A DNA stretch of 45,055 bases from Phycisphaerae bacterium (GTDB lineage Bacteria > Planctomycetota > Phycisphaerae > Phycisphaerales > SM1A02): the NCBI GenBank assembly GCA_016873275.1, contig VGXO01000021.1:1-45055 (forward strand), written 5' to 3'. Position 1 is the first letter of the stretch. Each line of letters begins with the position of its first letter. Below the pieces are notes generated by a model. That model was given only the letters and a program-made list of their open reading frames with translations. It did no database searches and was not told where the DNA came from. Made by a program: the position numbers and the translations under genes. Shown here piece after piece: positions 6,380 to 43,707 of the stretch.

Positions 6380-6391
6380 GAGCCGAGTGTA
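6380..6391 (-). promoter_or_regulatory. Predicted leaderless -10 box for the cytochrome/DUF1549 gene
   Basis: On the minus strand TACACT (6391-6386) is followed by six bases (CGGCTC) and then ATG at 6379. A start site about 7 nt after the -10 would fall on or next to the A of ATG. No convincing -35 was seen. Confidence 0.5.
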
Positions 6392-6444
6392 CGGATGGTT
6401 TGCTCCCCGACCACTCGGAGCCAGAGGATCCTCGCCCGGAACCG

Positions 6445-8325
6445 CTACCGGCGCCGCCGCTCTTCCGGGGACGCCGCGTGGTCGAGTTCCTGCTTCACCG
6501 CGGCGATCAGGCGGTCGGCGCGAAAGGGCTTGTCGAGCAAGGTCACCTTCGAGCGATCGATGCCCTCCCGCTCGAGCATGTCGGCGGCGTAGCCAGACAT
6601 GAAGACCACGCAGACCGAGGGCGACACCCCGACGACCTTCCGAACGAGCGCCGGACCGGTCAGTCCCGGCATGACGACGTCCGTCACGACGAGGTCCGGG
6701 ACGAACTGGTCGTCGCGCACCAGCTTCCACGCCGCGTCGCCGCTCGGGGCGCTTCGGACCTCGAAGCCGCACTCCGCGAGCGCATCCGCGACCCACAGGC
6801 GGATCGAGTCGTTGTCCTCGCAGACGAGCGCCCGTCGGCCGCCTCCCTCCAGGACGATCGGAGTCGCGGGTCGGTCCGGCACCGGCTCGGCGTGGACGAG
6901 CGGAAGATAGATCCTGAACTCGGCACCCTTGCCCGGCGCGGTCGTCAGGTGGATGCGTCCGCCGCTCGCCTGCACGATCGAGTAGACGGTGGCGAGCCCG
7001 AGCCCGGTGCCCCGCGAGGGCCCCTTGGTCGTGAAGAAGGGCTCGAAGACGCGCTCCGCGACCTCGGGCGTCATGCCCTCGCCGTCGTCCGCGAAGCGGA
7101 GGCGGATCCACTGCCCGGCCGGGATCTGGTCGGCTCCAGCGAGGGCATCGCGCTGGTCGATCGGCTCGACGCGGACCGCGAAGCGCCCCCCCTTCGGCAT
7201 CGCGTCGCGGGAGTTCATGGCGAGGTTGAGGACCACCTGCTCGAACTGCACGGGGTCCATGCGCACGATGGTCGGGGCGCCGGACGCGTCGAGCTCGAGC
7301 CGCACCGTCTCTCCGAGCGCCTGGCGCAGGAGGTCCTGCATCGCCTGGAGCGAGTCGAACGGCGAGAACACCGTGGGCTGCGACTCGCGTCGCCGGCTGA
7401 AGTCGAGCAAGCGGCGGGTGACGCCCCGCGCCTGCTGCGCCGCTTGATCGATCATGTCGAGATGACGCGTGATGGTCTCGGGGCCGATGCGCTTCTCGAG
7501 CCCGCGGCGGACGAGGTCGAGACCTCCGAACATGACCATCAGCGCGTTGTTGAAGTCGTGCGCGATTCCGCCCGCCATGCGACCGAGCGCCTCCATCTTC
7601 TGCGCTTGCCGCAGCTGGATCTCGCTCGCCTCGCGCTCGATCGAGGAGCCGAGGAGCATCGCGATGATGCGGAGCGCATCGACCTCGACGGAGTCCCACG
7701 ACTTCGCCTCGTCGCAGGCGTCGAAGCCGATGAAGCCCCACCAGGTCGGTCCGGCGAAGATCGGCTCGACGAGGAGCGACTGGATGCCCTGCGCCGCGAG
7801 CAGCGGCTGCTCGCTCTCGGGAAACTCATGGACGTCCCCGTAGACCGGATTCCCGGCGCCGAGCAGCTCGGCCCAGCGTCCGAAGCCCGCCTCGCGGGCA
7901 GGAACCTCGCGAAGGTCCGGGTTGTCGATCTGCGGACTGACGCCCTCCGCGACCCACTCGAACCGCTGGGAGAAGATCGCGTTGCCGTCGCGCTCGTGAC
8001 GCGCGACCTCGAAGATGTAGACCCGGCTCGTGCCGGTCGCCTCGCCGAGGATCGCAAGGACCTCGGAGATCCGCTCCCGCCACGGCGTCACGTCGAAGAG
8101 CCGCGAGGCGGCCTGCGAGACGCCTCCGAGGATCTCGTCTCGCCGCCGGATCGCCGCCCGCATCCGCTCGCCCGTGACGTCCCGCGGGGCAAACGACAGG
8201 GCGCTCGCCCAGCGAAGCGTCCGCTCGACCACCCGGATCGTCTCGGGCTCGACCAGTTCGGAGGCGAAGGAGAACTCGCCGCGGGGAGTCGGATCTGGGA
8301 ACCTCGCCGCGTCCGAGGAGGGCAT
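6445..8325 (-). CDS. GAF-domain hybrid sensor histidine kinase with receiver domain
   Basis: This 626-residue soluble hybrid kinase has no transmembrane segment. Domains in order: an N-terminal segment; a GAF-like sensor (about 65-230, 'SRVYIFEVARHERDGNAIFSQRFEW...'); a HisKA dimerisation helix with the phospho-accepting His256 in 'GGIAHDFNN'; an HATPase with N box 'NLAMNSRDAMPKGG' (367-380) and G boxes 'DDGEGM', 'GTGLGL'; and a C-terminal receiver with acidic E503/D504, phospho-acceptor Asp549 in 'VVTDVVMPG' and Lys599 in 'LLDKPF'. All catalytic residues look intact. The GAF loop resembles those linked to light, gas or small-molecule sensing, but the ligand is unknown. Start ATG 8325 follows a TACGCT box by 7 nt. 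It stands upstream of, and may be read into, the cytochrome gene (65-nt gap). Confidence 0.93.
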   Translation of the reverse strand: MPSSDAARFPDPTPRGEFSFASELVEPETIRVVERTLRWASALSFAPRDVTGERMRAAIRRRDEILGGVSQAASRLFDVTPWRERISEVLAILGEATGTSRVYIFEVARHERDGNAIFSQRFEWVAEGVSPQIDNPDLREVPAREAGFGRWAELLGAGNPVYGDVHEFPESEQPLLAAQGIQSLLVEPIFAGPTWWGFIGFDACDEAKSWDSVEVDALRIIAMLLGSSIEREASEIQLRQAQKMEALGRMAGGIAHDFNNALMVMFGGLDLVRRGLEKRIGPETITRHLDMIDQAAQQARGVTRRLLDFSRRRESQPTVFSPFDSLQAMQDLLRQALGETVRLELDASGAPTIVRMDPVQFEQVVLNLAMNSRDAMPKGGRFAVRVEPIDQRDALAGADQIPAGQWIRLRFADDGEGMTPEVAERVFEPFFTTKGPSRGTGLGLATVYSIVQASGGRIHLTTAPGKGAEFRIYLPLVHAEPVPDRPATPIVLEGGGRRALVCEDNDSIRLWVADALAECGFEVRSAPSGDAAWKLVRDDQFVPDLVVTDVVMPGLTGPALVRKVVGVSPSVCVVFMSGYAADMLEREGIDRSKVTLLDKPFRADRLIAAVKQELDHAASPEERRRR

Positions 8326-8338
8326 GAGGGCAAGCGTA
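8326..8338 (-). promoter_or_regulatory. Predicted leaderless -10 box for the hybrid kinase
   Basis: Minus-strand TACGCT (8338-8333) is followed by seven bases and the ATG at 8325, so transcription would begin at or next to the start codon. The same TACGCT also occurs at 31219-31214 upstream of the membrane HTH gene, there with a longer leader. Confidence 0.45.
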
Positions 8339-8442
8339 GCGGGTCCGCCCCGACCCGCGAACTTCGAGGAGGATCGTGGTTGCCTGAGCGGTCGATCTGA
8401 TCCAGACTCCCTCATGACCGGAGACCGCACCGAGACCGCACC

Positions 8443-9180
8443 ATGCCGCGCCCCCTCCAAGTCCTGCTGATCGCGTCCGCGCTCGGAGGTCTCGCCCCGA
8501 GCACTCCCGCCGACGTCGTCTACGCGACCAGCGGTCCCTTCGGTGGTCCGTTCGGCGTCATCGGCTTCGACGTCTTCGCGCAGCAGTCCGTCGGCGTCCG
8601 CTTCGTGCCGACCCAGAACTACCGGCTCGACCGCATCAAGGTCTGGCTCATGGACAACTCCGGCGGCTCGCACCCCCTCGTCACGCTCGAGGTGCGGGCG
8701 GACCAGACCTCCGGCGGCATCAGCATCCCCTCGACGATCGTGCGGGAGTCATGGACCTTTCCCATCGCCGCGGTGGGATGGGTCCCGCAGCAGGAGACCG
8801 TGCAGTCGTCGGCCCGACCGATCCTCGAGGCGGGCGTGCGGACCTGGATCGTCGCGCGATCGCGATCCAGCGCCGGCATGAATCCCGTCTGGAACTGGGC
8901 GTCGCAAGGCGCCGGCTTCGTCGCCACGACGAACGGCTCGCCGGAGGCGTGGCAGCCCGGGGGGGTCGGCGCGGTCGTCTCGGTCGTCGTCGAAGGCACG
9001 CCTTGGTCGCCTCCGAGCCCCGACCTGAACGGCGACGGGGTCGTCGGCGGCGCGGACCTCACGATCCTCCTCGCCGCGTGGGGCGCGTGCCCGCCCACGG
9101 GCGACTGCGTCGCCGACCTTGTCGAGAACGGACAGGTCGATGGCGCCGACCTCGCGGCGCTCCTTGCGGCGTGGTCCTGA
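8443..9180 (+). CDS. Secreted protein with dockerin-like C-terminus
   Basis: This 245-residue exported protein has a signal peptide at residues 1-24 (MPRPLQVLLIASALGGLAPSTPA). The middle domain (about 25-185) is beta-rich and unrecognised; 'FVPTQNYRLDRIKVWLMDNSGG' suggests a jelly-roll-like carbohydrate-binding or structural fold, but I cannot name it. The C-terminus (about 190-245) is a planctomycete-type dockerin with two calcium-loop repeats: 'DLNGDGVVGGADLTILLAAWG' and 'VENGQVDGADLAALLAAWS'. The second loop is degenerate because 'DLVENGQ' lacks the DxNxDG pattern. By family knowledge such tails bind cohesin-like modules or calcium outside the cell. The gene converges with another dockerin gene 18 bp away. 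Confidence 0.88.
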   Translation: MPRPLQVLLIASALGGLAPSTPADVVYATSGPFGGPFGVIGFDVFAQQSVGVRFVPTQNYRLDRIKVWLMDNSGGSHPLVTLEVRADQTSGGISIPSTIVRESWTFPIAAVGWVPQQETVQSSARPILEAGVRTWIVARSRSSAGMNPVWNWASQGAGFVATTNGSPEAWQPGGVGAVVSVVVEGTPWSPPSPDLNGDGVVGGADLTILLAAWGACPPTGDCVADLVENGQVDGADLAALLAAWS

Positions 9181-9301
9181 GCGAGAAGGTCCCGGCGATC
9201 AGCCCCAGTTCGAGAGCAGGATCGCCAGGTCCGCGCCGTTCACCTCGCCATCGTCGTTGAGGTCCGCCGGGCAGTCGCCCTTGGGCGGGCACGCGCCCCA
9301 C
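9078..9301. repeat. Inverted repeat formed by two convergent dockerin genes
   Basis: Bases 9078-9108 and the reverse complement of 9271-9301 agree at 30 of 31 positions (one C/A difference, the Thr/Lys of AWGACPP-T/K-GDC). The arms are 162 bp apart, each inside the coding sequence of one dockerin. Weaker similarity extends through both dockerin domains. Confidence 0.85.
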
Positions 9302-10761: not shown

Positions 10762-11062
10762 GGCGCGACTCCGGGCGTGGAAGGTTCGAGGCGTCCGAAC
10801 GAACATAGTCCCGCCGCCGACCCTGCCCACCTCAAATGCGGACGCAGGTTCACTTTCGTGAGGTTCGAGGGGACCCAGCGTCAACTGCTGCGGCAGGTCG
10901 GATTCAACCACCATGCCGTCCGGGAACTGGTCCGACGGCTCCCGCTGGCTCCTCCGGCGATCTCTTCCCCGCGGACCGAATCGACCTCAGCGGTCGCCGC
11001 ACGATCGCCGAAGTACCGCATGCAGGTGGTCGCCGGGGTCGCCCCCGGAGCCCCCAACCCCG
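10762..11062. other. 301-bp divergent intergenic region
   Basis: The region separates the minus-strand propeller-dockerin gene from the plus-strand SLC13 transporter. It contains the TATGTT box and GGAG site of the minus gene. On the plus side there is no clear -10; a GGAG lies about 14 nt before ATG 11063. A plus-strand open stretch beginning at GTG 10858 reads 'RFEGTQRQLLRQVGFNHHAV', which looks mildly protein-like but runs out into low-complexity sequence. It may be chance or a gene remnant. Local sequence is a little less GC-rich than the flanks. Confidence 0.5.
10802..10807 (-). promoter_or_regulatory. Candidate -10 box for the propeller-dockerin gene
   Basis: Minus-strand TATGTT (10807-10802) would start transcription near 10795 and leave a leader of about 34 nt with a GGAG ribosome site. 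This gene is therefore conventionally led, unlike the leaderless set. No clear -35 at 16-18 bp. Confidence 0.35.
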
Positions 11063-12865: not shown

Positions 12866-13081
12866 TTCCCCGAGGCGTCGAGAACGGGGTGGATCGCGGG
12901 TCGCGGGCGGCGAGGAACCCGGGAGGATCTCCGGCGGGATGCGACCTCGAACCGCGCCTGGAGACCCGGTCGCGATCGGGAGGTCGCACTCCGGACCGCC
13001 GGAAGCGCCCTAACTCTGTTCAGTCGAAGGGACAACGATCCGATATCTCCCCCGAGTCCCCTTCCCGCCCTCGAGAACGTG

Positions 13082-13885: not shown

Positions 13886-13900
13886 ACCGGAAGGTCTGAA
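13875..13900 (+). repeat. 12-bp direct repeat across the rfbF stop codon
   Basis: GGAAGGTCTGAA occurs at 13875-13886 and again at 13889-13900 with a 14-bp period. The first copy contains the TGA of rfbF. This looks like a recent small tandem duplication. Confidence 0.7.
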
Positions 13901-13928
13901 TCGGGCTCACCGCCCGCAGGAGTCCCTC

Positions 13929-14936: not shown

Positions 14937-14956
14937 GGAGTCCCCGAGGAGCCCCC

Positions 14957-17555: not shown

Positions 17556-17593
17556 ACCTTGAGCAGCGAGTGCTCTTCCTCGCCCCAACGGAA

Positions 17594-17619
17594 GACGGGA
17601 GCCGCGTGCGGCTCCCGTC
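17594..17619 (-). terminator. Hairpin terminator between glycosyltransferase and tRNA-Pro
   Basis: The left arm GACGGGAGCCGC (17594-17605) pairs with 17608-17619 (12 bp; the inner bases probably open to form the loop). On the minus strand, after tRNA-Pro, it is followed by TTCCGTT, so it most likely ends the tRNA transcript. It could also serve the plus-strand glycosyltransferase operon that ends at 17555. Confidence 0.7.
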
Positions 17620-17621
17620 CA

Positions 17622-17695: not shown

Positions 17696-17701
17696 TCATG
17701 C

Positions 17702-17760: not shown

Positions 17761-17804
17761 CCGGCCCGGAGGAACACCCAGCCCACCGCGGGCGAGGGAG
17801 ACAG

Positions 17805-17891
17805 CGGACAGGGTGGGATTCGAACCCACGGTACGGTTACCCGTACACAGCATTTCCAGTGCTGCTCCTTCAGCCGCTCGGACACCTGTCC
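17805..17891 (-). tRNA. tRNA-Ser(GGA)
   Basis: This 87-nt class II tRNA has acceptor GGACAGG/CCTGTCC, discriminator G, anticodon loop CTGGAAA (anticodon GGA), a long variable arm (TGTACGGGTAACCGTACC) and T-loop TTCGAAT. The CCA end is not encoded. Confidence 0.96.
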
Positions 17892-17912
17892 GGGACGGCG
17901 TAGTCTACCCCG
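17879..17912 (+). promoter_or_regulatory. Predicted leaderless promoter of truB
   Basis: CGGACA (17879-17884) and TAGTCT (17901-17906) are 16 bp apart; six bases then precede ATG 17913. The -35 would lie inside the 5' end of tRNA-Ser. With tRNA-Ser this forms a back-to-back promoter sharing the symmetric GTAGTCTAC. Confidence 0.5.
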
Positions 17913-17929
17913 ATGCGCGGCGGCGACAA
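17900..17929 (-). promoter_or_regulatory. Predicted promoter of tRNA-Ser
   Basis: On the minus strand TTGTCG (17929-17924, -35) is separated by 16 bp from TAGACT (17907-17902, -10), with ten bases to the tRNA 5' end. The -35 lies within the first codons of truB. The -10 overlaps the truB -10 on the other strand. Confidence 0.55.
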
Positions 17930-18647: not shown

Positions 18648-18654
18648 GCGAGCG

Positions 18655-20519: not shown

Positions 20520-21572
20520 TTAGCCGCTCGCCTCGGATGGGTCAACGATCACGCCGCTCGGACCGGCGGTGACCGGACCGCCCGTCGCGCCCTCGACCCC
20601 GCCCCTGACCATGCCGATCGTCCGGAACTTCTCGAACCGCCGTCGCACGAGGGTCTCGGGCTTCAGGCGGACGAGGTCGTTGAGCTGCTCGACGATCCAC
20701 TCCTGCAGCGCGAGCGCCGCCGCCTTCGGATCCCGGTGGGCTCCCCCGGGCGGCTCCCCGATGACGTCGTCGATCAGGGCGTTCTCGAGGTTGTCCCGCG
20801 CCGTCAGCCGCAGCGAGGCGGCGGCGAGCGAGTTGGTCTGCTCGTTCGCCTGCTTCCAGAGGATCGCCGCGCATCCCTCGGGGCTGATCACGGAGTACCA
20901 CGCGTGCTGGAGCATCGCGACCCGGTCGCCGACGCCGATCCCGAGCGCACCGCCCGATCCGCCCTCGCCGATCACCACGCAGACGATCGGCGTCCGCAGC
21001 CGGCTCATCTCCATCAGGTTGCGGGCGATCGACTCGGCCTGCCCCCGCTGCTCCGCGCCGACGCCGGGGTAGGCGCCCTTGGTGTCGATCAGCGTGACGA
21101 TCGGCAGGCGGAACTTCTCCGCGAGGCGCATCTTCGAGAGCGCCTTGCGGTAGCCCTCCGGATGGGCGCAGCCGAAGTTGCAGGCGATCTTCTCGCTGGT
21201 CGTCCGACCGCGGCGGTGCGCCACCACCAGCACCTTGTGGGAGCGGATGCGACCCAGTCCCGTCACGATCGCCCGGTCGTCGGCGAACTGCCGGTCGCCG
21301 TGCAGCTCGACGAAGTCTCGGCAGATCATCTCGATGAAGTCGGTGCTCTGCGGACGCGCCGGATGGCGGGAGACCTTGACGGTCTGCCAGGGCGTCAGCG
21401 AGGCGTAGATGCGGGCGAGCAGGCGGTCCCGCTCGGCGCGGAGATCGCGGACCTGGCGATCGACCACGGGGTCGCCGCCGGCAACCTCCAGTTCGGCGAG
21501 GCGGGACTCGATCGCGGTGATCGGCTCCTCGAAGTCGAGGACGTAGGAGCCTGCGTAGGCGGTCGCGGCCAT
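20520..21572 (-). CDS. accA: Acetyl-CoA carboxylase carboxyltransferase subunit alpha
   Basis: This 350-residue protein has an N-terminal helical domain ('YVLDFEEPITAIESRLAELE') typical of AccA. The crotonase-like core carries 'HPARPQSTDFIEMICRDFVELHGDR', 'DTKGAYPGVGAEQRGQAE' and the oxyanion-type 'GEGGSGGALGIGVGDRV'. 'SPEGCAAILWK' closes the active site region. With AccD, not in this window, it transfers carboxyl from biotin to acetyl-CoA for fatty acid synthesis. Start ATG 21572 was chosen because the family begins here. A TACACT box lies 8 nt upstream. Divergent from proC. Confidence 0.96.
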   Translation of the reverse strand: MAATAYAGSYVLDFEEPITAIESRLAELEVAGGDPVVDRQVRDLRAERDRLLARIYASLTPWQTVKVSRHPARPQSTDFIEMICRDFVELHGDRQFADDRAIVTGLGRIRSHKVLVVAHRRGRTTSEKIACNFGCAHPEGYRKALSKMRLAEKFRLPIVTLIDTKGAYPGVGAEQRGQAESIARNLMEMSRLRTPIVCVVIGEGGSGGALGIGVGDRVAMLQHAWYSVISPEGCAAILWKQANEQTNSLAAASLRLTARDNLENALIDDVIGEPPGGAHRDPKAAALALQEWIVEQLNDLVRLKPETLVRRRFEKFRTIGMVRGGVEGATGGPVTAGPSGVIVDPSEASG

Positions 21573-21586
21573 CGGGCGGCAGTGTA
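21573..21586 (-). promoter_or_regulatory. Predicted near-leaderless -10 box for accA
   Basis: Minus-strand TACACT (21586-21581) is followed by eight bases and ATG 21572, so the predicted start site lies within one or two bases of the start codon. Shares the 67-bp divergent gap with the proC promoter. Confidence 0.45.
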
Positions 21587-21604
21587 GTCCCGCCGCCCGC
21601 TCGA

Positions 21605-21639
21605 TTGACAGCCCCGCGCGCGGCGCCGATCCTCCCGCC
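21605..21639 (+). promoter_or_regulatory. Predicted leaderless promoter of proC
   Basis: A perfect TTGACA (-35, 21605-21610) is followed after exactly 17 bp by GATCCT (21628-21633) and six bases before ATG 21640. The -10 is weak but the -35 and spacing are ideal. Transcription would start at the ATG. Confidence 0.6.
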
Positions 21640-22467
21640 ATGCACCACGATCCGCTGACGGTCGCGATCTTCGGGTACGGCAACCTCGGGAGCGCGATCG
21701 TGGAGGGCGCCGTCCGCCGCCGACTGCTGCATCCCCGCGAGGTGGTGGTCGTCGAGCCGGATCCGGGCGCCCGCGGACGCGCCGAGCGGCTCGGATGCCG
21801 GATCGCCCGCGACGCCTCCGACTGGAGCGCCGCTCCGCGCGCGGTCGTCTCGGTGAAGCCCCAGGCGTGGGGCGACGTCGCGGCGTCGCTCGCGGGTCAT
21901 CCTGGCGATCGCCTGCTGATCTCGGTGATGGCGGGTCTTCCCATCGTCCGCATCCGAGCCGACGCCGGTCGCACGACCCGCGTCGCCCGCGCGATGCCGA
22001 ATGTTCCGGCTCGCCTCGGGCTCGCCATCACCGCCATCGCCTCGGACGCCGGCGTCTCCCCGGAGGACGCCGCCTACGTGCGGCGGCTCTTCGAGGGAAT
22101 CGGCGAGGTGGTCGAGATCCCCGAGCGTCACTTCCACGCGGTGACCGCGCTCAGCGGCTCGGGACCTGCCTACATCTTCCGCCTCGCCGAGTGCCTCGAG
22201 GAGACTGCGCGGTCGCTCGGTCTTCCCCCGGCGGTCGCGCGGGCGCTCGTCTCCCGCACGATCCGCGGCGCGGGCGCGATGCTCGTCGAGGATGGCGCGG
22301 AGCCGGAGCGGCTGCGGGACGCGGTGACGAGCCGCGGCGGCACCACCGCGGCGGCGCTCGAGCAGTTCGAGCGGTGGGGACTTGGTCCCGCGGTCTCCGA
22401 CGCGGTCGCCGCCGCGGCGCAGCGGAGCCGCGAGCTCGCCGGCGAGACCCCTCTGTCCACGACCTGA
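21640..22467 (+). CDS. proC: Pyrroline-5-carboxylate reductase
   Basis: This 275-residue enzyme carries out the last step of proline synthesis, reducing pyrroline-5-carboxylate with NAD(P)H. The Rossmann motif is 'FGYGNLGSAI' (11-20). 'SVKPQ', 'RAMPNVPARLGLAITAI', the ProC signature 'VTALSGSGPAYIF' near residue 170 and 'DAVTSRGGTTAAAL' follow in the family order. The length matches typical ProC. ATG 21640 lies directly at the predicted transcription start. It converges with the ABC permease gene, 13-bp gap, no terminator. Confidence 0.95.
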   Translation: MHHDPLTVAIFGYGNLGSAIVEGAVRRRLLHPREVVVVEPDPGARGRAERLGCRIARDASDWSAAPRAVVSVKPQAWGDVAASLAGHPGDRLLISVMAGLPIVRIRADAGRTTRVARAMPNVPARLGLAITAIASDAGVSPEDAAYVRRLFEGIGEVVEIPERHFHAVTALSGSGPAYIFRLAECLEETARSLGLPPAVARALVSRTIRGAGAMLVEDGAEPERLRDAVTSRGGTTAAALEQFERWGLGPAVSDAVAAAAQRSRELAGETPLSTT

Positions 22468-23677: not shown

Positions 23678-24657
23678 CAGCGTCCACTCCCGCGTCCGGA
23701 GAGGACGCCGCCGGGGCGTCCGCCGCCCGCGTCCGAGACGGTCCGCACGAAGAGCTCCTCCAGGCTCGCGCGGCTCGCCCGCAGCGAGGTGATCACCCGT
23801 CCCGCCGCCCGCGCCGCGTCGACGATCGGCTGCACCTCCGCGGCGTCGCGCCGCGGGATCCGCAGGTGCCATCCCTCCGCTCCCGCCGCGCACGTGCCGC
23901 CCATCGACTCGACGAGCGAGGTCAGCCCGCCGGGCAGCGGCTGCCCGCTGCCGGCGATCTCGACGTCATGCCGCTCGTCGCCGGCAAGCTCCGAGATCGG
24001 TCCCTGCGCGACGACCTGCCCTTGGTTCAGGATCGCGATGCGACCGCACATCGCCTCGACCTCGCTCAGGAGGTGGCTGTTGAGGAGGACGCTTCGCGTG
24101 GATGCCGCCTGCAGCAGCGCGTCGCGGATCTCCTTGCGGCCGATCGGATCAACGCCGTCGGTGGGCTCGTCGAGGACGAGGAGCTCCGGGTCGCTCACGA
24201 GAGAGACCGCGAGCCCCACCCGCTGCCGCATCCCCTTCGAGTAGGTCCGGACCGGTCGGTCCGCCCAGTCGCGCATTCCGACGAGCTCGAGGAGCTCGCC
24301 GCCGCGCCGCCGGCGATCGATCCGCGGAACCTTGGCGAGCGCCCCGAAGTAGTCGAGCGCCTGTCGAGCGGTGAGGTAGTCGGGAAAGCGGAGGTTCTCC
24401 GGGAGATACCCGACCTTCGCGAGGGTCTCGCGGTCCCCGAGCGGAGCGCCGAGCACCGTGCCCCCTCCTCCGGTCCGGCGCACGAGGGTCAGCAGGATCT
24501 TGACCAAGGTGCTCTTGCCCGCGCCATTGGGACCGAGCAGCCCGAAGATCTCTCCCCGCTCGACGCGGATCGAGGCGCCGCGGAGCGCCTCCACGCCGCG
24601 GTAGCGCTTCCGGAGGTCGATGAGGTCCACCGCGGCGTCGGGGCCCGACGAGGTCAT
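23677..24657 (-). CDS. ABC transporter ATP-binding protein
   Basis: This 326-residue ATPase has Walker A 'GPNGAGKST', signature 'YSKGMRQRV' (a variant of LSGGQ as in CcmA/NatA-type exporters), Walker B 'LLVLDEP' and switch His in 'LLNSHLLSEVE'. About 80 C-terminal residues after the nucleotide domain form the extra region seen in ABC-2 exporter ATPases. It pairs with the adjacent permease (one-base overlap). ATG 24657 lies six bases after a TACCAT box. Confidence 0.94.
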   Translation of the reverse strand: MTSSGPDAAVDLIDLRKRYRGVEALRGASIRVERGEIFGLLGPNGAGKSTLVKILLTLVRRTGGGGTVLGAPLGDRETLAKVGYLPENLRFPDYLTARQALDYFGALAKVPRIDRRRRGGELLELVGMRDWADRPVRTYSKGMRQRVGLAVSLVSDPELLVLDEPTDGVDPIGRKEIRDALLQAASTRSVLLNSHLLSEVEAMCGRIAILNQGQVVAQGPISELAGDERHDVEIAGSGQPLPGGLTSLVESMGGTCAAGAEGWHLRIPRRDAAEVQPIVDAARAAGRVITSLRASRASLEELFVRTVSDAGGGRPGGVLSGRGSGR

Positions 24658-24669
24658 GCGTGGATGGTA
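24658..24669 (-). promoter_or_regulatory. Predicted leaderless -10 box for the ABC exporter operon
   Basis: Minus-strand TACCAT (24669-24664), six bases, then ATG 24657. Within the 62-bp divergent gap to the DUF1573 gene, whose own -10 is 38 bp away. Confidence 0.5.
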
Positions 24670-24707
24670 CGGAGGAGACCCAGCGCCGTTGCAGCGCGGG
24701 CGCCGAC

Positions 24708-24719
24708 TACACTCCGCTG
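24708..24719 (+). promoter_or_regulatory. Predicted leaderless -10 box for the DUF1573 operon
   Basis: TACACT (24708-24713) is followed by six bases (CCGCTG) and ATG 24720. This is the same hexamer and spacing as for the cytochrome/DUF1549 gene on the opposite strand at 6379. Confidence 0.5.
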
Positions 24720-25823
24720 ATGCCCGCCCTTCATGCCTCCGTCGGGGTCATCCTCGCGTGCTGCCTGTCGCTGCCCGCGGGGTCCGCGACGATCCAGCAA
24801 GGTCCTCCGCCTCCGCCCGGCATCGCGCCCACCGAGCCAGGTCGAGGGAGGTTTCCGTCGCCGACGCCGGAGGCGCCGATCCGCCTCGAGCCGAGCCGAT
24901 TCGACCTCGGAGTCGTGGCGCCGGGATCGGTGCATCGCCGCACCTTCCGCATCGTCAACGATGGTCCGATGCAGCTCCGCGTGCGGGCGGCGAGCCCGAG
25001 CTGCCGCTGCACGACCGTGACCGACGTGGTCGGCAAGACGATCCCCGCGCAGGGCTCGCTCGAGCTCGAGGCGCAGTTCGACGCCCCGAAGACCCCGGGC
25101 GTCAAGGACGCCACGGTGAACATCGTGCTCGATGGCGCGCCGCGTCCCCTCGTCGCGACGATCTCCGGCGACGTCACCCTGCCGATCCGCGTCGAGCCGC
25201 CGTTCGTCGACGCCCTCGCCGGGAAGGTCGGCGGCACCGTCCGCCTCACCTCGATCGACGGTCGCCCCTTCACGATCCTCTCCGCGGGAGGACGCCCGCC
25301 GGTCTTCGCCGATCCGGCGCCGTCGGGACCTGCCGCGGCGCAGTCGATCAACTGGACGACCGCCGGACTCGCCTGCGAGAAGATGCCGCTGTGGTGGATC
25401 GTCGTCACCGATCACCCCGACTGCCCGATCGTGCCGCTCCGGATCCGCCATGAGTGCACCGGCACCAAGGCGGACATGGCGCGGTACGACCGCTTCTGGA
25501 TCCTCTCCGACCAGCTCGTGAGCCTCGGGACGATCCGCGCCGGCGAGGCGACCTCCTTCGAGGTGCAGCTCGACCACTACAACCCGAAGGGTCGAGGTCG
25601 CATCGAGCGCCCGAACTTCCGCGACGTGCGTGCCGCCACGATCGCCTCGCCGGACCTCGAGCTCGCGATCACCGGCACCCGACCCGTGGGAACGGACTCG
25701 GTGGTGATCTCGATGACGGTCACCCCGAAGCCGGGCACCTCCGGGGCGATCGAGACCTTCCTCCGCGTCGAGACCGCGACGGGGGCGGGCGAGGTCCCCT
25801 TCGTCGCGGTGGTCGCTCCGTGA
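24720..25823 (+). CDS. Secreted DUF1573 domain protein
   Basis: This 367-residue exported protein has a signal peptide (residues 1-23, MPALHASVGVILACCLSLPAGSA). A Pro-rich linker leads to a DUF1573 Ig-like domain: 'RFDLGVVAPGSVHRRTFRIVNDG' and 'RAASPSCRCTTV', the latter with the paired Cys typical of the family. The remaining two-thirds repeats beta-sandwich-like segments ('PLWWIVVTDHPDCPIVPLRI', 'DLELAITGTRPVGTDSVVISMTV'). The function is unknown; DUF1573 domains are thought to be periplasmic scaffolds. ATG 24720 fits both signal peptide and promoter. First gene of an operon with a phosphoesterase (GTGA overlap) and tsaB. Confidence 0.9.
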   Translation: MPALHASVGVILACCLSLPAGSATIQQGPPPPPGIAPTEPGRGRFPSPTPEAPIRLEPSRFDLGVVAPGSVHRRTFRIVNDGPMQLRVRAASPSCRCTTVTDVVGKTIPAQGSLELEAQFDAPKTPGVKDATVNIVLDGAPRPLVATISGDVTLPIRVEPPFVDALAGKVGGTVRLTSIDGRPFTILSAGGRPPVFADPAPSGPAAAQSINWTTAGLACEKMPLWWIVVTDHPDCPIVPLRIRHECTGTKADMARYDRFWILSDQLVSLGTIRAGEATSFEVQLDHYNPKGRGRIERPNFRDVRAATIASPDLELAITGTRPVGTDSVVISMTVTPKPGTSGAIETFLRVETATGAGEVPFVAVVAP

Positions 25824-30213: not shown

Positions 30214-30316
30214 GTTCGACGCTCCGGAAGCCGCGCGGACCGGGAGGCGGCAGGCGCCGCGATCGGTCCCCGGCGGAGTTCGCCCAGCGACCGCCCAGCG
30301 GCATCAGGGCGGCTCA

Positions 30317-34626: not shown

Positions 34627-34674
34627 GGGTCGATCACGCGCTCCGCAGGTCTCGGCGAGGTCCGGAGAGGGCGG

Positions 34675-34680
34675 AGTCTA
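34675..34680 (-). promoter_or_regulatory. Candidate -10 box for the 7TM-HD gene
   Basis: Minus-strand TAGACT (34680-34675) lies 48 bases before ATG 34626, giving a conventional leader. It is 40 bp from the leaderless box of the divergent lipoprotein gene. Confidence 0.35.
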
Positions 34681-34720
34681 GGGGGCGTTCCCCGGCTCCC
34701 GACTCCTCGCGACCGGGAGG

Positions 34721-34732
34721 TATGCTCGCCGC
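34721..34732 (+). promoter_or_regulatory. Predicted leaderless -10 box for the lipoprotein gene
   Basis: TATGCT (34721-34726) is followed by six bases (CGCCGC) and the GTG start at 34733. This is the closest match to TATAAT in the leaderless set and the only one with a GTG start. Confidence 0.5.
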
Positions 34733-35335
34733 GTGCGAGGACCCTCGACCTGGCTCCTGTCCGCCTCGGCGATCCTCATCGCCGCCTGTTCGCCGCCCGA
34801 GCCGACCACGGCGCTCAACCGCCTCGACGACGCCTCGGGCTCCGCGGAGGCGAAGTGGGCGACGGTGGTGCTGGACGCCCGTCAGCGCCAGCAGGTGCTC
34901 GAGGTCTTCCAGTCGCTTCCCGAAGGCGAGGTCGGACCGGGGCCGCGATCGGAGCCCCAGGGTCGCTGGACCGACCTCCCCGACGCGGTCGGCGACGCGT
35001 GCGAGGACGTCGAGACCGCGGTCGTCGAGACGCGGTTCCTGCCCAAGGGCGCTTCGCTCGAGGACGCCGAGTCGATCGAGTTCGAGATCATCACCGCCGG
35101 CAACGAGCCGGGACTCGTGACCATCACCCGAGGAACGCCGCCGAAGCTCTACGAGGCGAAGGCGAGGATCGGCCTGCTCCTGCCGCAGACCCGCAAGCAG
35201 GAGATGCTCCTCGAGGCGATCGCCCGCGAGGTCCACGAGTGGGGACTGAAGCCGCAGCTCGAGCCCTGGCCGACGCCGAGCGAGCCTGGCGCGGCGGCGC
35301 CTACCGCGCCGGCGCCAGACCGACCGTCCCCATGA
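34733..35335 (+). CDS. Predicted lipoprotein of unknown function
   Basis: This 200-residue protein starts at GTG 34733. Residues 1-18 are a lipoprotein signal ending in the lipobox LIAAC with acylated Cys19; processing would need LspA (18655-19323). The mature domain (about 30-180) has no motif I recognise; 'WATVVLDARQRQQVLEVFQSLPEGE' and 'ARIGLLLPQTRKQEMLLEAIAREV' are the best-ordered parts. A Pro/Ala tail (185-200) runs into a 35-bp convergent overlap with gatA. Confidence 0.8.
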   Translation: MRGPSTWLLSASAILIAACSPPEPTTALNRLDDASGSAEAKWATVVLDARQRQQVLEVFQSLPEGEVGPGPRSEPQGRWTDLPDAVGDACEDVETAVVETRFLPKGASLEDAESIEFEIITAGNEPGLVTITRGTPPKLYEAKARIGLLLPQTRKQEMLLEAIAREVHEWGLKPQLEPWPTPSEPGAAAPTAPAPDRPSP

Positions 35336-36779: not shown

Positions 36780-37107
36780 CGGTCAGCACCTTCGGCACCG
36801 CGATGAAGGTGCCCTCGCGGACCGGCGCACGCGCGAGGATCGCCTCCACGTCGAGCGTCTCGCCCGGCTCGTCGGAGTCGAGGCGGTTGCCGCCCCGCGC
36901 CGAGGCGGCGAGAGGCTGGTTCATCGGCTCGACCCCGGTGCAGTCGACGCCACGCAGCCGGTCGATGTGCGAGAGCACCGCCGCGAGGTCGTTCCGCATG
37001 CGATCGACCTGCTCCGGATGAAGCCGCAGGCGGGCAAGCCTCGCGACCTTCAGGACGTCGCCGCGGGAGAGAGGTTCCGCGCTCGGTGAATCCGTTCCGC
37101 CGCTCAT
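36769..37107 (-). CDS. gatC: Amidotransferase subunit C
   Basis: This 112-residue small subunit stabilises GatA-GatB. Typical GatC sequence: 'VLKVARLARLRLHPEQVDRMRNDLAAVLSHIDRLRGVDCTGVEP' followed by the C-terminal belt ending in 'EGTFIAVPKVL'. ATG 37107 lies six bases after TACCGT (minus strand), another predicted leaderless start. First gene of the gatCA operon. Confidence 0.94.
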   Translation of the reverse strand: MSGGTDSPSAEPLSRGDVLKVARLARLRLHPEQVDRMRNDLAAVLSHIDRLRGVDCTGVEPMNQPLAASARGGNRLDSDEPGETLDVEAILARAPVREGTFIAVPKVLTDGD

Positions 37108-37119
37108 GGCCGCACGGTA
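37108..37119 (-). promoter_or_regulatory. Predicted leaderless -10 box for gatCA
   Basis: Minus-strand TACCGT (37119-37114), six bases (GCGGCC), then ATG 37107. No good -35 at 16-18 bp. Confidence 0.45.
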
Positions 37120-37244
37120 GCACGCCGCGCGACCGCCGCCCGAGCCATGCGTGGGGCTACCATCTCCGCCCTGCCCCGCCGGACGCATCGCGGCCGCGTT
37201 CGCACCGCATCAATCGCGCCGCCTTCCTGACCGAAGCCTTCTTC

Positions 37245-38606: not shown

Positions 38607-41600
38607 GCCTCCCCGGCTTCGGCGTCCGCAATCCGGTCCCGGCGAACCTGCTCGCCGCGGCGCTCGTCATCGGCGGCACCTACGCCGCCTTGAACATGCG
38701 GCGGGAGTTCTTCCCCGAGACCTCCCCCGACTCGCTCCGCATCCTCGTCGCCTACCCCGGCTCGACCCCGGTCGAGATCGAGGAGTCGATGGTCCGCAAG
38801 GTCGAGGACGCCGTCGCGGACCTCGAGGGCGTCAAGCAGCTCACCTCGAACATCGCCGAGGGCGTGGCGACGGTGCTCGTCGAGTTCGAGGACGGCACCA
38901 ACCTCGTGAAGGCGCTCCGCGATGCGGAGCAGGCGGTCGAGTCGCTCCGCGACCTGCCTCCGGACGCCGAGCGGATCCGGGTCATCGAGTTCGAGCCGAA
39001 CCTGCCGGTGATCATGCTCACCCTGCACGGCGATGGCTCCGAGCGGGAGATGAAGCGGACGATCCGCGCGATCGCCGACGACCTCCGCAGCCTCCCGGGC
39101 ATGGGCTCGGTGCTCCTCTCGGGGATCCGCGAGCGGGAGATCCGCATCGACGTCGATCCGGCGGCGTCGCTCCGCTACGGCCTCGGGCTGCCCGCGGTCT
39201 CCGACGCCATCGGCGCCTGGATGCGGGAGGTGCCGAGCGGCTCGATCCGCTCGAGCGGCGGGACGATCAACGTCCGCACCCTCGGCGTCGCCGAGGAGGC
39301 GGAGCGGATCCGCGCGATCGTGGTCCGCACCGGTCCCGATGGCGAGAGCATCCGCGTCGGCGACCTCGCGGTGGTCGAAGAGGGCTTCGCCGACGTCCCG
39401 CTCGTGCGCCGCTTCAACGGCTCTCCCGCGGTGAGCCTCACCGTCTTCAAGACCGCCGACGAGGACGCGGTGAAGATCGCCGAGATGGTGCGGGCCTACG
39501 CCCGCGGCGCCCAGGGACTTCCCTTCGAGGGCTCCGCGGTCGACCGCCTGATGGGCTCGCATCGGCTGGAGGCGTGGCGGCTCGGCGCGGCGCGACCGGA
39601 GGCGCTCCCGGGCGAGCTCCACCTCCATTCCGACCTCGCCCGCTTCATCGAGGGACGGCTGGAGCTCCTCTCGACCAACGCGCTGCAGGGCGCGGGGCTC
39701 GTCTTCCTCGTGCTCCTGCTCATGCTCAACCTGCGGGTCGCCTTCTGGGTGATGGTGGGGCTGGTGACGGCGCTCTCCGGCACGCTCTTCCTGATGATGC
39801 TGCTCGGCGTCACCCTGAACCTGCTGACGATGTTCGGGCTCCTCATCGTGCTCGGCATGCTGACCGACGACGCGATCGTGGTCGCGGAGAACATCATCAC
39901 CCGCCACGAGGGCGGGGAATCGGCGAAGGACTCCGCGATCCGCGGCGCCGAGGCGGTCGGCTGGCCCGTGGTCGCGACCGTCACCACCACGATCGTGGCG
40001 TTCCTGCCGCTCCTCTTCATCCAAGGGCGCATCGGTGCCCTGATGGGCGCGCTGCCGTGGGTCGTGACGTGCGCCCTCCTCGTCAGCATCATCGAGGCGA
40101 TGGTGGTGATGCCTGCCCACATGCGTCACGCCATCGATGGCATGGACCGCGGCGGACGCGGAATCATCCCGCTCGCCGACCGCTTCGGACGCTGGCGGGA
40201 CCGAAGGATCATCGCCCCCGCCATCGAGACGTACGGTCGGCTCATCGGGTGGTGCCTCGACCGCCGCTACCTCGTCACCACCCTGACGATGGCGGCGCTG
40301 ATCTTCTCGCTCGGGATGATCGCCGGCGGTCGGGTGCCCTTCACCTTCCTCGCCGCGGACGACGCGGAGACGGTGGTGGTCGACGTCCGGATGCCGATCG
40401 GCACGAGCCTCGAGGAGACGATCGCCGAGGCCCGCCGCCTCGAGGCGGCGGCGCTCGCCCAGCCGGAGGTTCGATCGGTGAGCGTCATCGCCGGCGAGCG
40501 GGCGAACACCGACACCGGCACCTCCGACGCGGCGAGCACCAACGTCGGGCAGCTCTTCATCGAGATGGTGCCGGTCGAGGAGCGCGATCGATCGAGCGGT
40601 CAGGTGACCGACGCGATCCGCGCCGCCGCCGGACCGATGGACCGTGCCGACCTCGTCGCCTTCCGGGAGATCACCGGCGGTCCCGGCGGCGCGGACATCA
40701 CCGTCGAGGTCACCGGCGACGACGAGGTCGCGAGCGCCTCCGCGGTCGCGGCGATCAAGGCGGCGCTCGCGGTGCTGCCGGGCGTCTACGGGATCTCGGA
40801 CGACGACTTCGGGGCGCAGTCCGAGGTGCAGATCGAGCTGAAGCCGGGCGCCGCGGCGCTCGGTCTGAGCGTCGCGGACGTCGCCCGGCAGATCCGCGCG
40901 TCGCTCTACGGTCTCGAGGCGCACGTCTTCGCCGCGGACCGCGAGGACATCGACGTCCGGGTTCGCCTCGACGAGGCGAGCCGAAGGCGCATCGGGAGCA
41001 TCGAGGAGATGTGGATCGCGACGCGCTCCGGGGCGATGGTGCCGCTCTCCGAGGTCGCGTCCCTCCGCGAGGGCAGCGGCTACTCGGCGATCCGCCGCAT
41101 CGACCGGCGCCGCAGCGTCACCGTCACCGCCGACGTCGACGAGGCGACGAACCCGGAGGCGATCAGCGAGGTGCTCGATCCCCGCCTCGCGGAGATCGCC
41201 GCGGAGCATCCCTCGCTCGTGATCGACACCGGCGGTCGCCAGCGGAACGTGCGGGAGGCGTTCGAGACGCTGCCGATCGCCGCGACCGCCGCCGCGATCA
41301 TGATCTACGTGATCCTCGCGTGGCTCTTCGGAAGCTACTTCCAGCCGCTCGCGGTGATGCTCGCGATCCCCTTCGGCGTGATCGGCATCGTGTGGGGGCA
41401 CTGGCTGATGGGCTTCGACATGACCTTCCTGAGCCTCATCGGCTTCGTCGCGCTCGCGGGCGTCGTGGTGAACAACTCGCTCGTCCTCGTCGACTTCACG
41501 AACGGTAATCGCCGCCGGGGCATGTCGCTCCGCGAGGCGCTCGTCGTCGCGGGTCGCCAGCGGCTCCGGCCGATCGTGCTCACGAGCCTGACCACGGTGC

Positions 41601-41827
41601 TCGGTCTCGCGCCGCTGATGCTCGAGCAGTCCTTCCAGGCACGGTTCCTGATCCCCATGGCGATCAGCATCTCCTTCGGGCTCGTGAGCGCGACGGTGCT
41701 GACGCTCGTCGTGCTGCCTGCGGTCCTGATGATCGTGGAGGACGTCCTCGGACTCCTCGCGTGGGCGTGGACGGGCGAGCGACCGACCCGCGAGGCGACT
41801 GCGCCGGAGGTCGAGCCCGCGACCTGA
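38603..41827 (+). CDS. RND superfamily efflux pump permease
   Basis: This 1074-residue inner-membrane transporter of the AcrB/HAE-RND type starts at GTG 38603 (GTGA overlap with the adaptor). The first helix is 'PANLLAAALVIGGTYAALNM' and the porter domain begins 'REFFPETSPDSLRILVAYPGSTPVEIEE'. The proton-relay helix has 'LGMLTDDAIVVAENII' near residue 420. The second half repeats the fold with 'FMTFLSLIGFVALAGVVVNNSLVLVDFTN'-like sequence near 945-970. Full length for the family. No outer-membrane channel gene is adjacent. Substrate unknown. Confidence 0.94.
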   Translation: MSLPGFGVRNPVPANLLAAALVIGGTYAALNMRREFFPETSPDSLRILVAYPGSTPVEIEESMVRKVEDAVADLEGVKQLTSNIAEGVATVLVEFEDGTNLVKALRDAEQAVESLRDLPPDAERIRVIEFEPNLPVIMLTLHGDGSEREMKRTIRAIADDLRSLPGMGSVLLSGIREREIRIDVDPAASLRYGLGLPAVSDAIGAWMREVPSGSIRSSGGTINVRTLGVAEEAERIRAIVVRTGPDGESIRVGDLAVVEEGFADVPLVRRFNGSPAVSLTVFKTADEDAVKIAEMVRAYARGAQGLPFEGSAVDRLMGSHRLEAWRLGAARPEALPGELHLHSDLARFIEGRLELLSTNALQGAGLVFLVLLLMLNLRVAFWVMVGLVTALSGTLFLMMLLGVTLNLLTMFGLLIVLGMLTDDAIVVAENIITRHEGGESAKDSAIRGAEAVGWPVVATVTTTIVAFLPLLFIQGRIGALMGALPWVVTCALLVSIIEAMVVMPAHMRHAIDGMDRGGRGIIPLADRFGRWRDRRIIAPAIETYGRLIGWCLDRRYLVTTLTMAALIFSLGMIAGGRVPFTFLAADDAETVVVDVRMPIGTSLEETIAEARRLEAAALAQPEVRSVSVIAGERANTDTGTSDAASTNVGQLFIEMVPVEERDRSSGQVTDAIRAAAGPMDRADLVAFREITGGPGGADITVEVTGDDEVASASAVAAIKAALAVLPGVYGISDDDFGAQSEVQIELKPGAAALGLSVADVARQIRASLYGLEAHVFAADREDIDVRVRLDEASRRRIGSIEEMWIATRSGAMVPLSEVASLREGSGYSAIRRIDRRRSVTVTADVDEATNPEAISEVLDPRLAEIAAEHPSLVIDTGGRQRNVREAFETLPIAATAAAIMIYVILAWLFGSYFQPLAVMLAIPFGVIGIVWGHWLMGFDMTFLSLIGFVALAGVVVNNSLVLVDFTNGNRRRGMSLREALVVAGRQRLRPIVLTSLTTVLGLAPLMLEQSFQARFLIPMAISISFGLVSATVLTLVVLPAVLMIVEDVLGLLAWAWTGERPTREATAPEVEPAT

Positions 41828-41839
41828 ACGGAGGTCGCC

Positions 41840-42442
41840 TCAGCGACGGGCAAGCCGCTCGCAGTCGCGATGCCGAGGGCAGGAGAGAAGGTGGTCGTTC
41901 ACAATTCCCACCGCCTGCATGAAGGCGTAGGCGATCACCGGACCGCAGAACTTGAAGCCCGCGGCTCGGAGGGACTTCGCGAGGAGTCGGCTCTCGGCGC
42001 TCTCCGCGGGAACGTCGCCCGGTCGGCGACGGCTCGCGAGGCGGGTGCGATGACCGACGCAGGACCAGACGAGGTCGCGGAAGGATCCCTCGCCCTGCTC
42101 CATCACCCGCTGCCACGCGCGGGCGTTCGAGATCGCGCCGTCGATCTTCGCGCGGCTTCGGATGATCCCGGCGTCCGCGAGGAGCCTCGTCCGGTCGCGC
42201 TCGCCGAAGCCGGCGATGCGATCCGGATCGAAGCCGGCGAACGCCCGGCGGAACGCCTCGCGTCGCCGCAGGATCGTGATCCACGAGAGCCCCGCCTCGA
42301 ACCCGTCGAGGACGAGCTTCTCGAAGAGCGCCCGATCATCGACGACCGGCACCCCCCACTCCTCGTCGTGGTAGGCGACGTAGACCGGGTCCGTGCCGCA
42401 CCACCAGCAGCGACCGGCGACCGGTGCCGCGGCGCGGCTCAC
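41840..42442 (-). CDS. tag: DNA-3-methyladenine glycosylase I
   Basis: This 200-residue Tag-family enzyme starts at GTG 42442 overlapping the HIT stop (GTGA). The family start 'RCWWCGTDPVYVAYHDEEWGVPV' carries Cys12 and His25 of the zinc site; later 'NDHLLSCPRH' supplies the C-terminal His/Cys. 'LFEKLVLDGFEAGLSWITILRRREAFRRAFAGFD' is the alkyl-base pocket region. It removes 3-methyladenine from alkylated DNA. The second Cys (CxxC) in the first motif is an extra compared with E. coli Tag. Converges with the RND gene (12-bp gap). Confidence 0.94.
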   Translation of the reverse strand: MSRAAAPVAGRCWWCGTDPVYVAYHDEEWGVPVVDDRALFEKLVLDGFEAGLSWITILRRREAFRRAFAGFDPDRIAGFGERDRTRLLADAGIIRSRAKIDGAISNARAWQRVMEQGEGSFRDLVWSCVGHRTRLASRRRPGDVPAESAESRLLAKSLRAAGFKFCGPVIAYAFMQAVGIVNDHLLSCPRHRDCERLARR

Positions 42443-42900
42443 CCGCCGCTCCCGTTGGATCGGGTCGCGGGAAGCCGACGAGCGATCTCCTCGAACGCCG
42501 CCGCGCAGCGTGCGGGGTCGGCGGGCGAGCGCGTCCCCGCGGCGACCGCGCGGTAGTGATCGGCGACCGACCAGCCCCGGGTCTCCTCCTCGCGCTCGTG
42601 GCGCGGCACGAGGTGGACATGGACGTGGCGGGCGGCTTCCGCGAAGGAGAGCAGGTAGACCCGCGCGCAGCCGGTCGCCTCCCGCACCGCGGCGGAGACC
42701 TCGACGAGGAGGCGTCCCAACTCCTCCGACTCCTCCCCGGTCAGCTCGTCGAGGGTCGCCGCGTGCCTCGCGAGGTCGAGGATCGCCCAGCCGGCGACGG
42801 GCGATGGATCGGGATGACGCCGGAGACGCCACCGCCTTCCGAGCGGCATGGATGCCGCGGCGGTCATGGTGCAGATGGGGCAGGTCGCATCCGTGGTCAT
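42439..42900 (-). CDS. HIT family hydrolase
   Basis: This 153-residue histidine-triad protein has the catalytic motif HVHVHLVPR near residue 92, matching HxHxH. An N-terminal 'CPICTM' Cys pair resembles the zinc-binding CxxC of many HIT proteins. It probably hydrolyses a nucleotidyl phosphoramidate or dinucleotide; substrate unknown. ATG 42900 has GAGG five bases upstream, a conventional leader. Forms an operon with tag. Confidence 0.92.
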   Translation of the reverse strand: MTTDATCPICTMTAAASMPLGRRWRLRRHPDPSPVAGWAILDLARHAATLDELTGEESEELGRLLVEVSAAVREATGCARVYLLSFAEAARHVHVHLVPRHEREEETRGWSVADHYRAVAAGTRSPADPARCAAAFEEIARRLPATRSNGSGG

Positions 42901-42969
42901 CGGTCCTCGACCCGAGACGATACGCGGCGCCGACGGGGACCTCGGGGTCGAGCCGATCTCGTCGCGAGG

Positions 42970-42981
42970 TATTCTGCCGGC
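42970..42981 (+). promoter_or_regulatory. Predicted leaderless -10 box for the DUF1080 gene
   Basis: TATTCT (42970-42975), six bases (GCCGGC), ATG 42982. Part of the recurring -10/start geometry. Confidence 0.5.
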
Positions 42982-43707
42982 ATGACCATCTCACTCCTCC
43001 TCGCGGTCTCGATCGCCTCCACGCTCCAGTCGAAGCCGAACGTCACCGACGCGCCTCCCCGCATCGCGAACACCCGCGGCGTGCCGTCCGCGACGGACGT
43101 CAGGTTCGGCGAGAAGGTCATGCTCTTCGACGGCAAGTCCCTCGACGGATGGACGCCCTTCCTGCCGGGCGGCGAGGATCCCGCCGGCACGTGGAGCGTC
43201 AAGGATGGCGTCCTCGTCTGCACCGGCTCGCCGGTCGGCTACATCCGCACCGAGAAGACCTACGACAACTTCGAGCTCCGCCTCGAGTGGCGGTTCGATC
43301 CGGAGAAGGGCGCGGGCAACAGCGGCGTCCTGATCCGCGTGCAGCCGCCGGACCAGGTCTGGCCCACCTCGATCGAGGCGCAGCTTCACTCCGAGAACGC
43401 CGGCGACATCTGGAACATCGGCGACTATCCGATGCTCACCGCGCCCGCCCGCACCGAGGGTCGCCGAACCACCAAGGAGCACGCAAGCTCGGAGAAGCCG
43501 CTCGGGGAGTGGAACCAGTACCGGATCGTGATGAACGGCGGCGAGCTGAAGCTCTTCGTGAACAGCGTCCTCCAGAACACCGCGACCAACTGCCAGGTCC
43601 AGCCGGGCTGGATCGCCCTGCAGTCGGAGGGTGCCCACATCGAGTTCCGCAAGATCGAGCTCCGTCCGATCCTCAGCCAGGCGCCGAGTCCGACCGCGGC
43701 GGAGTGA
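42982..43707 (+). CDS. DUF1080 / 3-keto-disaccharide hydrolase-like secreted protein
   Basis: This 241-residue exported protein has a short signal peptide (MTISLLLAVSIASTLQS). The DUF1080 (LamG-like jelly roll) domain spans about 42-232: 'VMLFDGKSLDGWTPF', 'WSVKDGVLVCTGSPVGYIRTEKTYDNFELRLEWRF', 'AGNSGVLIRV', 'WNQYRIVMNGGELKLFVN' and 'QPGWIALQSEGAHIEFRKIELRPI'. All usual blocks are present. Such proteins are abundant in planctomycetes, bind or cleave sugars outside the cell, and often accompany polysaccharide genes. The 3' end overlaps the next minus-strand gene by 35 bp. Confidence 0.92.
   Translation: MTISLLLAVSIASTLQSKPNVTDAPPRIANTRGVPSATDVRFGEKVMLFDGKSLDGWTPFLPGGEDPAGTWSVKDGVLVCTGSPVGYIRTEKTYDNFELRLEWRFDPEKGAGNSGVLIRVQPPDQVWPTSIEAQLHSENAGDIWNIGDYPMLTAPARTEGRRTTKEHASSEKPLGEWNQYRIVMNGGELKLFVNSVLQNTATNCQVQPGWIALQSEGAHIEFRKIELRPILSQAPSPTAAE

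Follow-up and report, generated by a model that had tools for sequence, protein, structure and literature searches.

Do genes of a Phycisphaerae bacterium begin their mRNAs directly at the start codon? The question is raised by a stretch of 45,055 nucleotides (contig VGXO01000021.1 of assembly GCA_016873275.1; "the window" below means this whole stretch), in which ten genes carry, a few nucleotides before the start codon, a hexamer that looks like a promoter -10 box. An earlier note had read this geometry as a sign of leaderless transcripts. The pattern is real and genome-wide, and leaderless transcription is by a wide margin its best reading, well supported by sequence; the hexamers are very probably -10 elements that place the transcription start at or near the start codon. 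Support for this reading comes from the enrichment of the box at a fixed distance, from its exclusion of Shine-Dalgarno (SD) sites, from the upstream position of the same hexamer in SD genes, from tRNA promoters, from part of the orthologues and from both control genomes.

All ten hexamers were read directly in the sequence ahead of the genes for which they had been reported. The gene names were borne out by Pfam in nine cases; the tenth gene, a putative lipoprotein recognized by eye, has no Pfam match. The boxes, with the start codons that they precede, are as follows.

6386..6391, minus strand: -10 box TACACT, 6 nt before the ATG at 6379 of a cytochrome c/DUF1549/DUF1553 gene
8333..8338, minus strand: -10 box TACGCT, 7 nt before the ATG at 8325 of a GAF-HisKA-HATPase-receiver hybrid kinase gene
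17901..17906, plus strand: -10 box TAGTCT, 6 nt before the ATG at 17913 of truB
21581..21586, minus strand: -10 box TACACT, 8 nt before the ATG at 21572 of accA
21605..21610, plus strand: -35 box TTGACA of proC, 17 bp before GATCCT
21628..21633, plus strand: -10-like box GATCCT, 6 nt before the ATG at 21640 of proC
24664..24669, minus strand: -10 box TACCAT, 6 nt before the ATG at 24657 of an ABC transporter ATPase gene
24708..24713, plus strand: -10 box TACACT, 6 nt before the ATG at 24720 of a DUF1573 gene
34721..34726, plus strand: -10 box TATGCT, 6 nt before the GTG at 34733 of the putative lipoprotein gene
37114..37119, minus strand: -10 box TACCGT, 6 nt before the ATG at 37107 of gatC
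42970..42975, plus strand: -10 box TATTCT, 6 nt before the ATG at 42982 of a DUF1080 gene (Pfam PF06439, 3-keto-disaccharide hydrolase)

The note had called the whole set TAnnnT-like; strict TAnnnT fits nine of the ten hexamers and fails for GATCCT of proC. The spacers had been counted correctly (6 nt in eight cases, 7 nt in the hybrid kinase gene and 8 nt in accA), and the TTGACA reported 17 bp ahead of the proC hexamer is present. The six genes named as having SD sites (at 190, 13929, 20378, 28422, 30213 and 31120) do carry GGAG or AGGAG ahead of their starts, with no TAnnnT beginning at positions -15 to -12. Two pairs of boxed genes stand back to back. The predicted leaderless starts of accA and proC are only 68 bp apart (21572-21640) and those of the ABC transporter ATPase and DUF1573 genes 63 bp (24657-24720), so that the promoters of each pair would share that stretch.

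A search for the motif at a fixed distance from start codons, compared with shuffled sequence, had been set beforehand as the test that could refute the leaderless reading. It gave strong enrichment in 26% of the genome, and a whole-genome spacer control agreed. The draft genome measures 3.23 Mb in 136 contigs, of which the window is C21; the sample comprised 800 kb outside the window, taken in stretches, or 845 kb with the window. Genes were called from coding potential and the type of start codon alone, and the upstream sequence was never used. We counted as first-of-unit those genes that are divergent from their neighbor or lie at least 60 nt behind a gene on the same strand; the transcription units themselves are not known. 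Inner genes were those that overlap a same-strand neighbor or follow it by less than 30 nt, and same-strand genes 30 to 59 nt behind their neighbor were counted in neither class. Genes that scored below 40, were cut by the end of a stretch, stood at a stretch end without a neighbor or had less than 80 nt of upstream sequence were dropped. A gene is called boxed when TAnnnT begins 12 to 15 nt before its start (-15 to -12).

Among the 361 first-of-unit genes outside the window, TAnnnT began at -15, -14, -13 and -12 in 7, 6, 21 and 16 cases, respectively (50 in all), and at any other position from -60 to 0 in 0 to 5 cases each. With the window included, 55 of 382 first-of-unit genes (14%) were boxed, compared with 5.9 expected from the other positions. 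Positions -12 and -13 alone accounted for 42 of the 382 genes, while after dinucleotide shuffling of the 40 nt ahead of each start (200 rounds) the count averaged 0.99 and never exceeded 4. Over the whole genome and both strands, TANNNT followed by a six-nucleotide spacer (N6) and ATG occurred 152 times, as compared with 5 times for an N3 spacer and 26 times for an N12 spacer. The start codons of boxed genes were ATG in 43 cases, GTG in 12 and TTG in none, and those of unboxed genes were ATG, GTG and TTG in 249, 68 and 10 cases.

The automatic procedure found 5 boxed genes among the 21 first-of-unit genes of the window. It placed three of the ten window starts elsewhere (those of the cytochrome gene, accA and the DUF1573 gene) and gave gatC a score of 35, below the cut-off of 40, and proC lies outside TAnnnT; the automatic box rate is therefore an underestimate. 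A three-component motif fit yielded shares of 33% box and 54% SD in the source genome, but when applied 40 nt further upstream, or to Cupriavidus and two other Planctomycetota genomes (G118 and G011), its box component took up other or meaningless motifs, so that 33% is an uncalibrated upper figure and we rely on the strict 14%. A two-component fit was dropped, as it merged the boxes with SD sites.

The same pipeline was run on two control genomes. The actinobacterium Nonomuraea gerenzanensis, as positive control, gave 15 boxed genes of 95 (2.0 expected), all with the box at -14 to -12, and Cupriavidus metallidurans, as negative control, gave 2 of 99 (2.8 expected). The N6 pattern stood to its reversed form as 152 to 35 in the source genome, 159 to 228 on the Cupriavidus megaplasmid and 139 to 129 on Sinorhizobium pSymB, the last two replicons being compared by the reversed form only and not by the N3 and N12 spacers.

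Several findings speak for a -10 box and not for a ribosome signal. An SD 4-mer was found in 5 of the 55 boxed genes versus 145 of the 327 unboxed genes (Fisher P = 1.6e-7), and 182 of the 382 genes had neither box nor SD 4-mer. The SD genes keep the hexamer at a greater distance: TAnnnT occurs at -64 to -27 in 47 of the 145 unboxed SD genes versus 1 of the 55 boxed genes (P = 5.5e-7). Only one SD gene has it at -26 to -17, as would be expected if the leader needs room for the SD site. In SD genes, then, the hexamer appears to sit upstream by one leader length. TAnnnT was also sought before tRNA genes (37 ARAGORN predictions, 18 from the source genome and 19 from four relatives, one of unclear type), where it began 16 times within -21 to -14 and 6 times in the remainder of the range from -60 to -6. 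The tRNA promoters and the upstream place of the hexamer in SD genes argue indirectly that it acts in transcription and not in translation. The rigidity of its spacing to the start codon also matches that of a -10 box to the transcription start site.

We then asked whether the box is kept in orthologues. The window AccA is 80% identical to that of the Planctomycetota isolate DEBay_Sum29DG08_11 (in a scan of named genomes) and at most 68% identical to those of the other loci listed, which are mostly from metagenome-assembled Phycisphaerae, Phycisphaerales or Phycisphaeraceae; these identities fit the placement of the DNA in Phycisphaerae. For accA and truB, 40 and 39 of 41 family genomes were matched, and 30 distinct loci, among them that of the window, were retained for each gene. 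A box counted whenever it preceded some in-frame start in reach, the starts allowed extending to 25 codons upstream of the expected one, and other distances were counted alike; duplicates and loci without a start in reach are left out. For truB, the box lay at -15 to -12 in 20 of the 30 loci, 18 of them at exactly -12, with at most 2 matches at any other distance. For accA it lay at -15 to -12 in 13 of the 30 loci, with at most 3 matches elsewhere, and a wider set had it in 30 of 107 orthologues (10, 9, 7 and 4 at distances 12, 13, 14 and 15). Some unboxed accA orthologues (e.g., L121 and L144) show, by eye, an SD-like stretch with TAnnnT further upstream, so that accA may have a leader in some genera and none in others. 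The loci retrieved included no orthologues of gatC or of the ABC transporter ATPase gene.

The proC gene differs. Only 4 of 23 of its orthologues have TAnnnT. In 5 of 76 orthologues, namely the window's own and those in L121, L125, L137 and L180, a TTGAC stands at exactly 35 nt ahead of a possible start, together with GAnnCT (such as GACGCT or GATCCT) at -12; no other distance gave more than 2. By this combination, window proC seems to have a leaderless promoter that relies on its -35 box, perhaps a second type of leaderless promoter.

The truB box has a neighbor on the opposite strand that could also account for it.

17804..17891, minus strand: tRNA-Ser (GGA), divergent to truB

The box is part of a symmetric 7-mer, TAGTCTA (within 17891-17913), whose reverse strand reads TAGACT 10 nt before the tRNA-Ser gene. 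TAGTCTA can thus be read as a -10 element in either direction, and the two start sites are estimated to lie about 18 bp apart. truB and tRNA-Ser probably share this symmetric -10 element, which resembles the pseudo-symmetrical bidirectional promoters named in the available text of PMC12825309. For truB alone, the box might be kept as the promoter of the divergent tRNA-Ser and not of truB. A divergent tRNA-Ser lies within 60 nt of a possible truB start in 20 of the 30 family loci, and a symmetric TAnnnTA stands at -12 of truB beside it in 16 of the 30. However, the box keeps a distance of exactly 12 from the start codon of truB in 18 of the 30 loci, while the tRNA lies anywhere between 21 and 34 nt from truB among the 16 loci with the symmetric 7-mer. 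We consider this explanation of the truB box unlikely, though it deserves more weight than any of the general alternatives discussed below.

Relatives were surveyed both by genes and by pattern counts. In the same family, G011 had 12 boxed genes of 100 (1.8 expected) and G021 6 of 81 (1.4 expected). Elsewhere in the phylum, the counts were 7 of 74 (0.9 expected) in G118 (69% G+C), 3 of 16 (0.35 expected) in G173 (67% G+C) and 3 of 75 (5.7 expected) in G101 (44% G+C); the window has 71% G+C. After Bonferroni correction, 51 of 119 Planctomycetota genomes, the source included, had the N6 pattern in excess of whichever spacer control was higher, and in 32 it was at least twice that control. By a hand count of family labels, the 51 genomes fall in 23 of the 63 sampled families. 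The N6 ratio drops with rising background count (Spearman -0.83 over the 119 genomes), a stand-in for A+T content, and AT-rich genomes cannot be judged by the pattern count.

The form of the box and the machinery of the genome were also considered. Boxed genes have C three bases before the box in 43 of 55 cases and directly after it in 43 of 55 (background 38% C), and G twenty bases before it in 34 of 55 (background 33% G); these preferences were picked afterwards from 48 columns, in the source genome only. A -35 box is present at proC and legible by eye before several tRNA genes. The pattern TTG, 17 bp, TANNNT, 6 nt and ATG, in that single spacing, has 2 matches in the genome, so that two-part promoters of this geometry are rare. 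One protein with a Sigma70_r1_2 domain (L280) carries a 24-residue stretch that looks like the usual -10 recognition region of RpoD, as in E. coli. The 16S rRNA of the source genome ends in GGATCACCTCCTTT. With an RpoD-like protein and this 16S end, leaderless and SD modes can coexist.

From these elements, the following course of events is proposed. The hexamer would serve as a -10 element of the kind read by an RpoD-type RNA polymerase, and transcription would begin on the first base of the start codon or no more than one or two nucleotides from it. The resulting mRNA would have neither a leader nor an SD site, and the ribosome would recognize its 5'-terminal AUG or GUG directly. The source genome would run this mode beside ordinary leadered SD mRNAs.

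Three other explanations of the hexamers were weighed. The hexamer might be a translation signal, an A/T-containing non-SD site for the ribosome or protein S1 within an ordinary leader. A protein with six S1 domains is encoded in the genome (C2:84509-86002), the box is present in some inner genes, and leaderless and S1 signals could not be separated in the work of Nakagawa 2017 (PMC5397173), according to its available text. Against such a signal, however, the same hexamer precedes tRNA genes, the SD genes retain it upstream rather than losing it, it keeps as strict a spacing as a -10 box does to a start site, and box and SD site are mutually exclusive, all of which makes this alternative very improbable. 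We hold it to be just as improbable that the promoters are real but the start codons mis-called, the true starts lying downstream and the leaders being short. Automatic calling did shift three of the ten window starts, but then 55 genes would have an in-frame start codon at a fixed 6 to 9 nt from the box by coincidence. Moreover, 18 of the 20 boxed truB loci keep the exact distance despite N-termini of differing length, and the boxed starts of the DUF1573 and lipoprotein genes are directly followed by a putative signal peptide, recognized by eye. Finally, the ten cases had been chosen by eye, one of them (proC) misfitting TAnnnT, and might reflect chance or the reader's selection in AT-poor sequence. 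The counts in the sample outside the window, in the shuffles, at the other spacers genome-wide and in Cupriavidus refute this, and we give it practically no weight.

Several observations nevertheless weigh against leaderless transcription as proposed, or limit its reach. The box is not confined to first genes: it also occurs in 10 of 162 inner genes, a modest difference from the 55 of 382 first-of-unit genes, the inner class being set by distance alone. The boxed inner genes suggest internal leaderless promoters within operons. No box was in reach in 10 of the 30 truB and 17 of the 30 accA family loci, and in a few boxed truB loci it stands only before a start far from the expected one. In the wider accA set, distance 32 reaches 9 matches, making the peak less exclusive. 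Two relatives of the same order, G042 (2 of 68, 1.2 expected) and G056 (3 of 86, 3.4 expected), showed no enrichment in 200-kb samples; G042 nonetheless has an N6 excess in the pattern count. The best TTGACA match in boxed genes did not surpass that in unboxed ones, and we therefore do not class the boxed genes as classical two-part sigma-70 promoters. Besides L280, another protein has a Sigma70_r1_2 match, so that the sigma factor acting at the box may be one other than L280.

Leaderless mRNAs are a known kind of message. In bacteria, TANNNT placed some 12 nt ahead of the start was described by Zheng 2011 (PMC3160421) as a mark of leaderless genes, termed TA-led. According to the available text, these share with the boxed genes the core TANNNT, the position at about 12 nt, the mixture with SD genes and the low information of the middle bases in GC-rich genomes. 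The string "Planctomyc" is absent from the main text of that paper, a statement that does not extend to the genome list on its website. In Deinococcus, a -10 motif adjoining open reading frames (ORFs) was shown to be functional by mutation and reporters (Zhong 2025, PMC12340547); as far as the available text goes, it is active without a -35 box, which raises expression, and is found across the bacterial domain. In Deinococcus-Thermus, TANNNT stands beside the start codon as in the source genome. The share there is about 30% of ORFs on average in Deinococcota, whereas strict TAnnnT makes up 14% of first-of-unit genes here, so that the two shares refer to different totals. The main text of this paper likewise lacks "Planctomyc", although its figure S7 or tables may include Planctomycetota. 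Nonomuraea, from another phylum, shares with the source genome the boxed first-of-unit genes; the use of leaderless mRNA by actinobacteria is known from the papers cited.

Closer to the present case, the available text of Nakagawa 2017 (PMC5397173) covers one planctomycete species in which SD sites are little used and A/T is favored upstream, a bias ascribed to leaderless mRNA and/or S1. It concerns the same phylum and gives base frequencies only, with no hexamer count, position or orthologue test for this species. The remark in the earlier note, that its author knew of no description for this group, must be qualified in that this paper lists Planctomycetes among the phyla with a bias ascribed to leaderless mRNA and/or S1; beyond it, the matches listed for the open-licence literature included no paper with leaderless genes in Planctomycetota in its title or the opening of its abstract. 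According to StartLink (PMC9581028), GeneMarkS-2 predicted that 21.6% of bacterial species have leaderless transcription. Neither the available text of that paper nor that of PMC4535381 mentions planctomycetes, and that of PMC10783764 places Phycisphaerae in one of its anti-SD categories. The present work thus appears to add sequence evidence in a little-studied group where leaderless genes had only been hinted at.

A broader proposal, to which we give somewhat less than even weight, is that leaderless transcription is a major and old mode across GC-rich Planctomycetota. It would account for up to about one third of the units here, with a lineage-specific box of the form CnnTAnnnTC, often a G twenty bases before it and no -35 box, and orthologues would switch freely between leaderless and SD modes. 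The box can serve to correct the start codons of boxed genes, and planctomycete gene finders or expression vectors that assume an SD leader would miss the boxed starts. The sequence evidence adds the Phycisphaerae family studied here, and probably much of the GC-rich Planctomycetota, to the groups with widespread leaderless mRNA, and this wider distribution bears on whether the leaderless mode is ancestral in bacteria.

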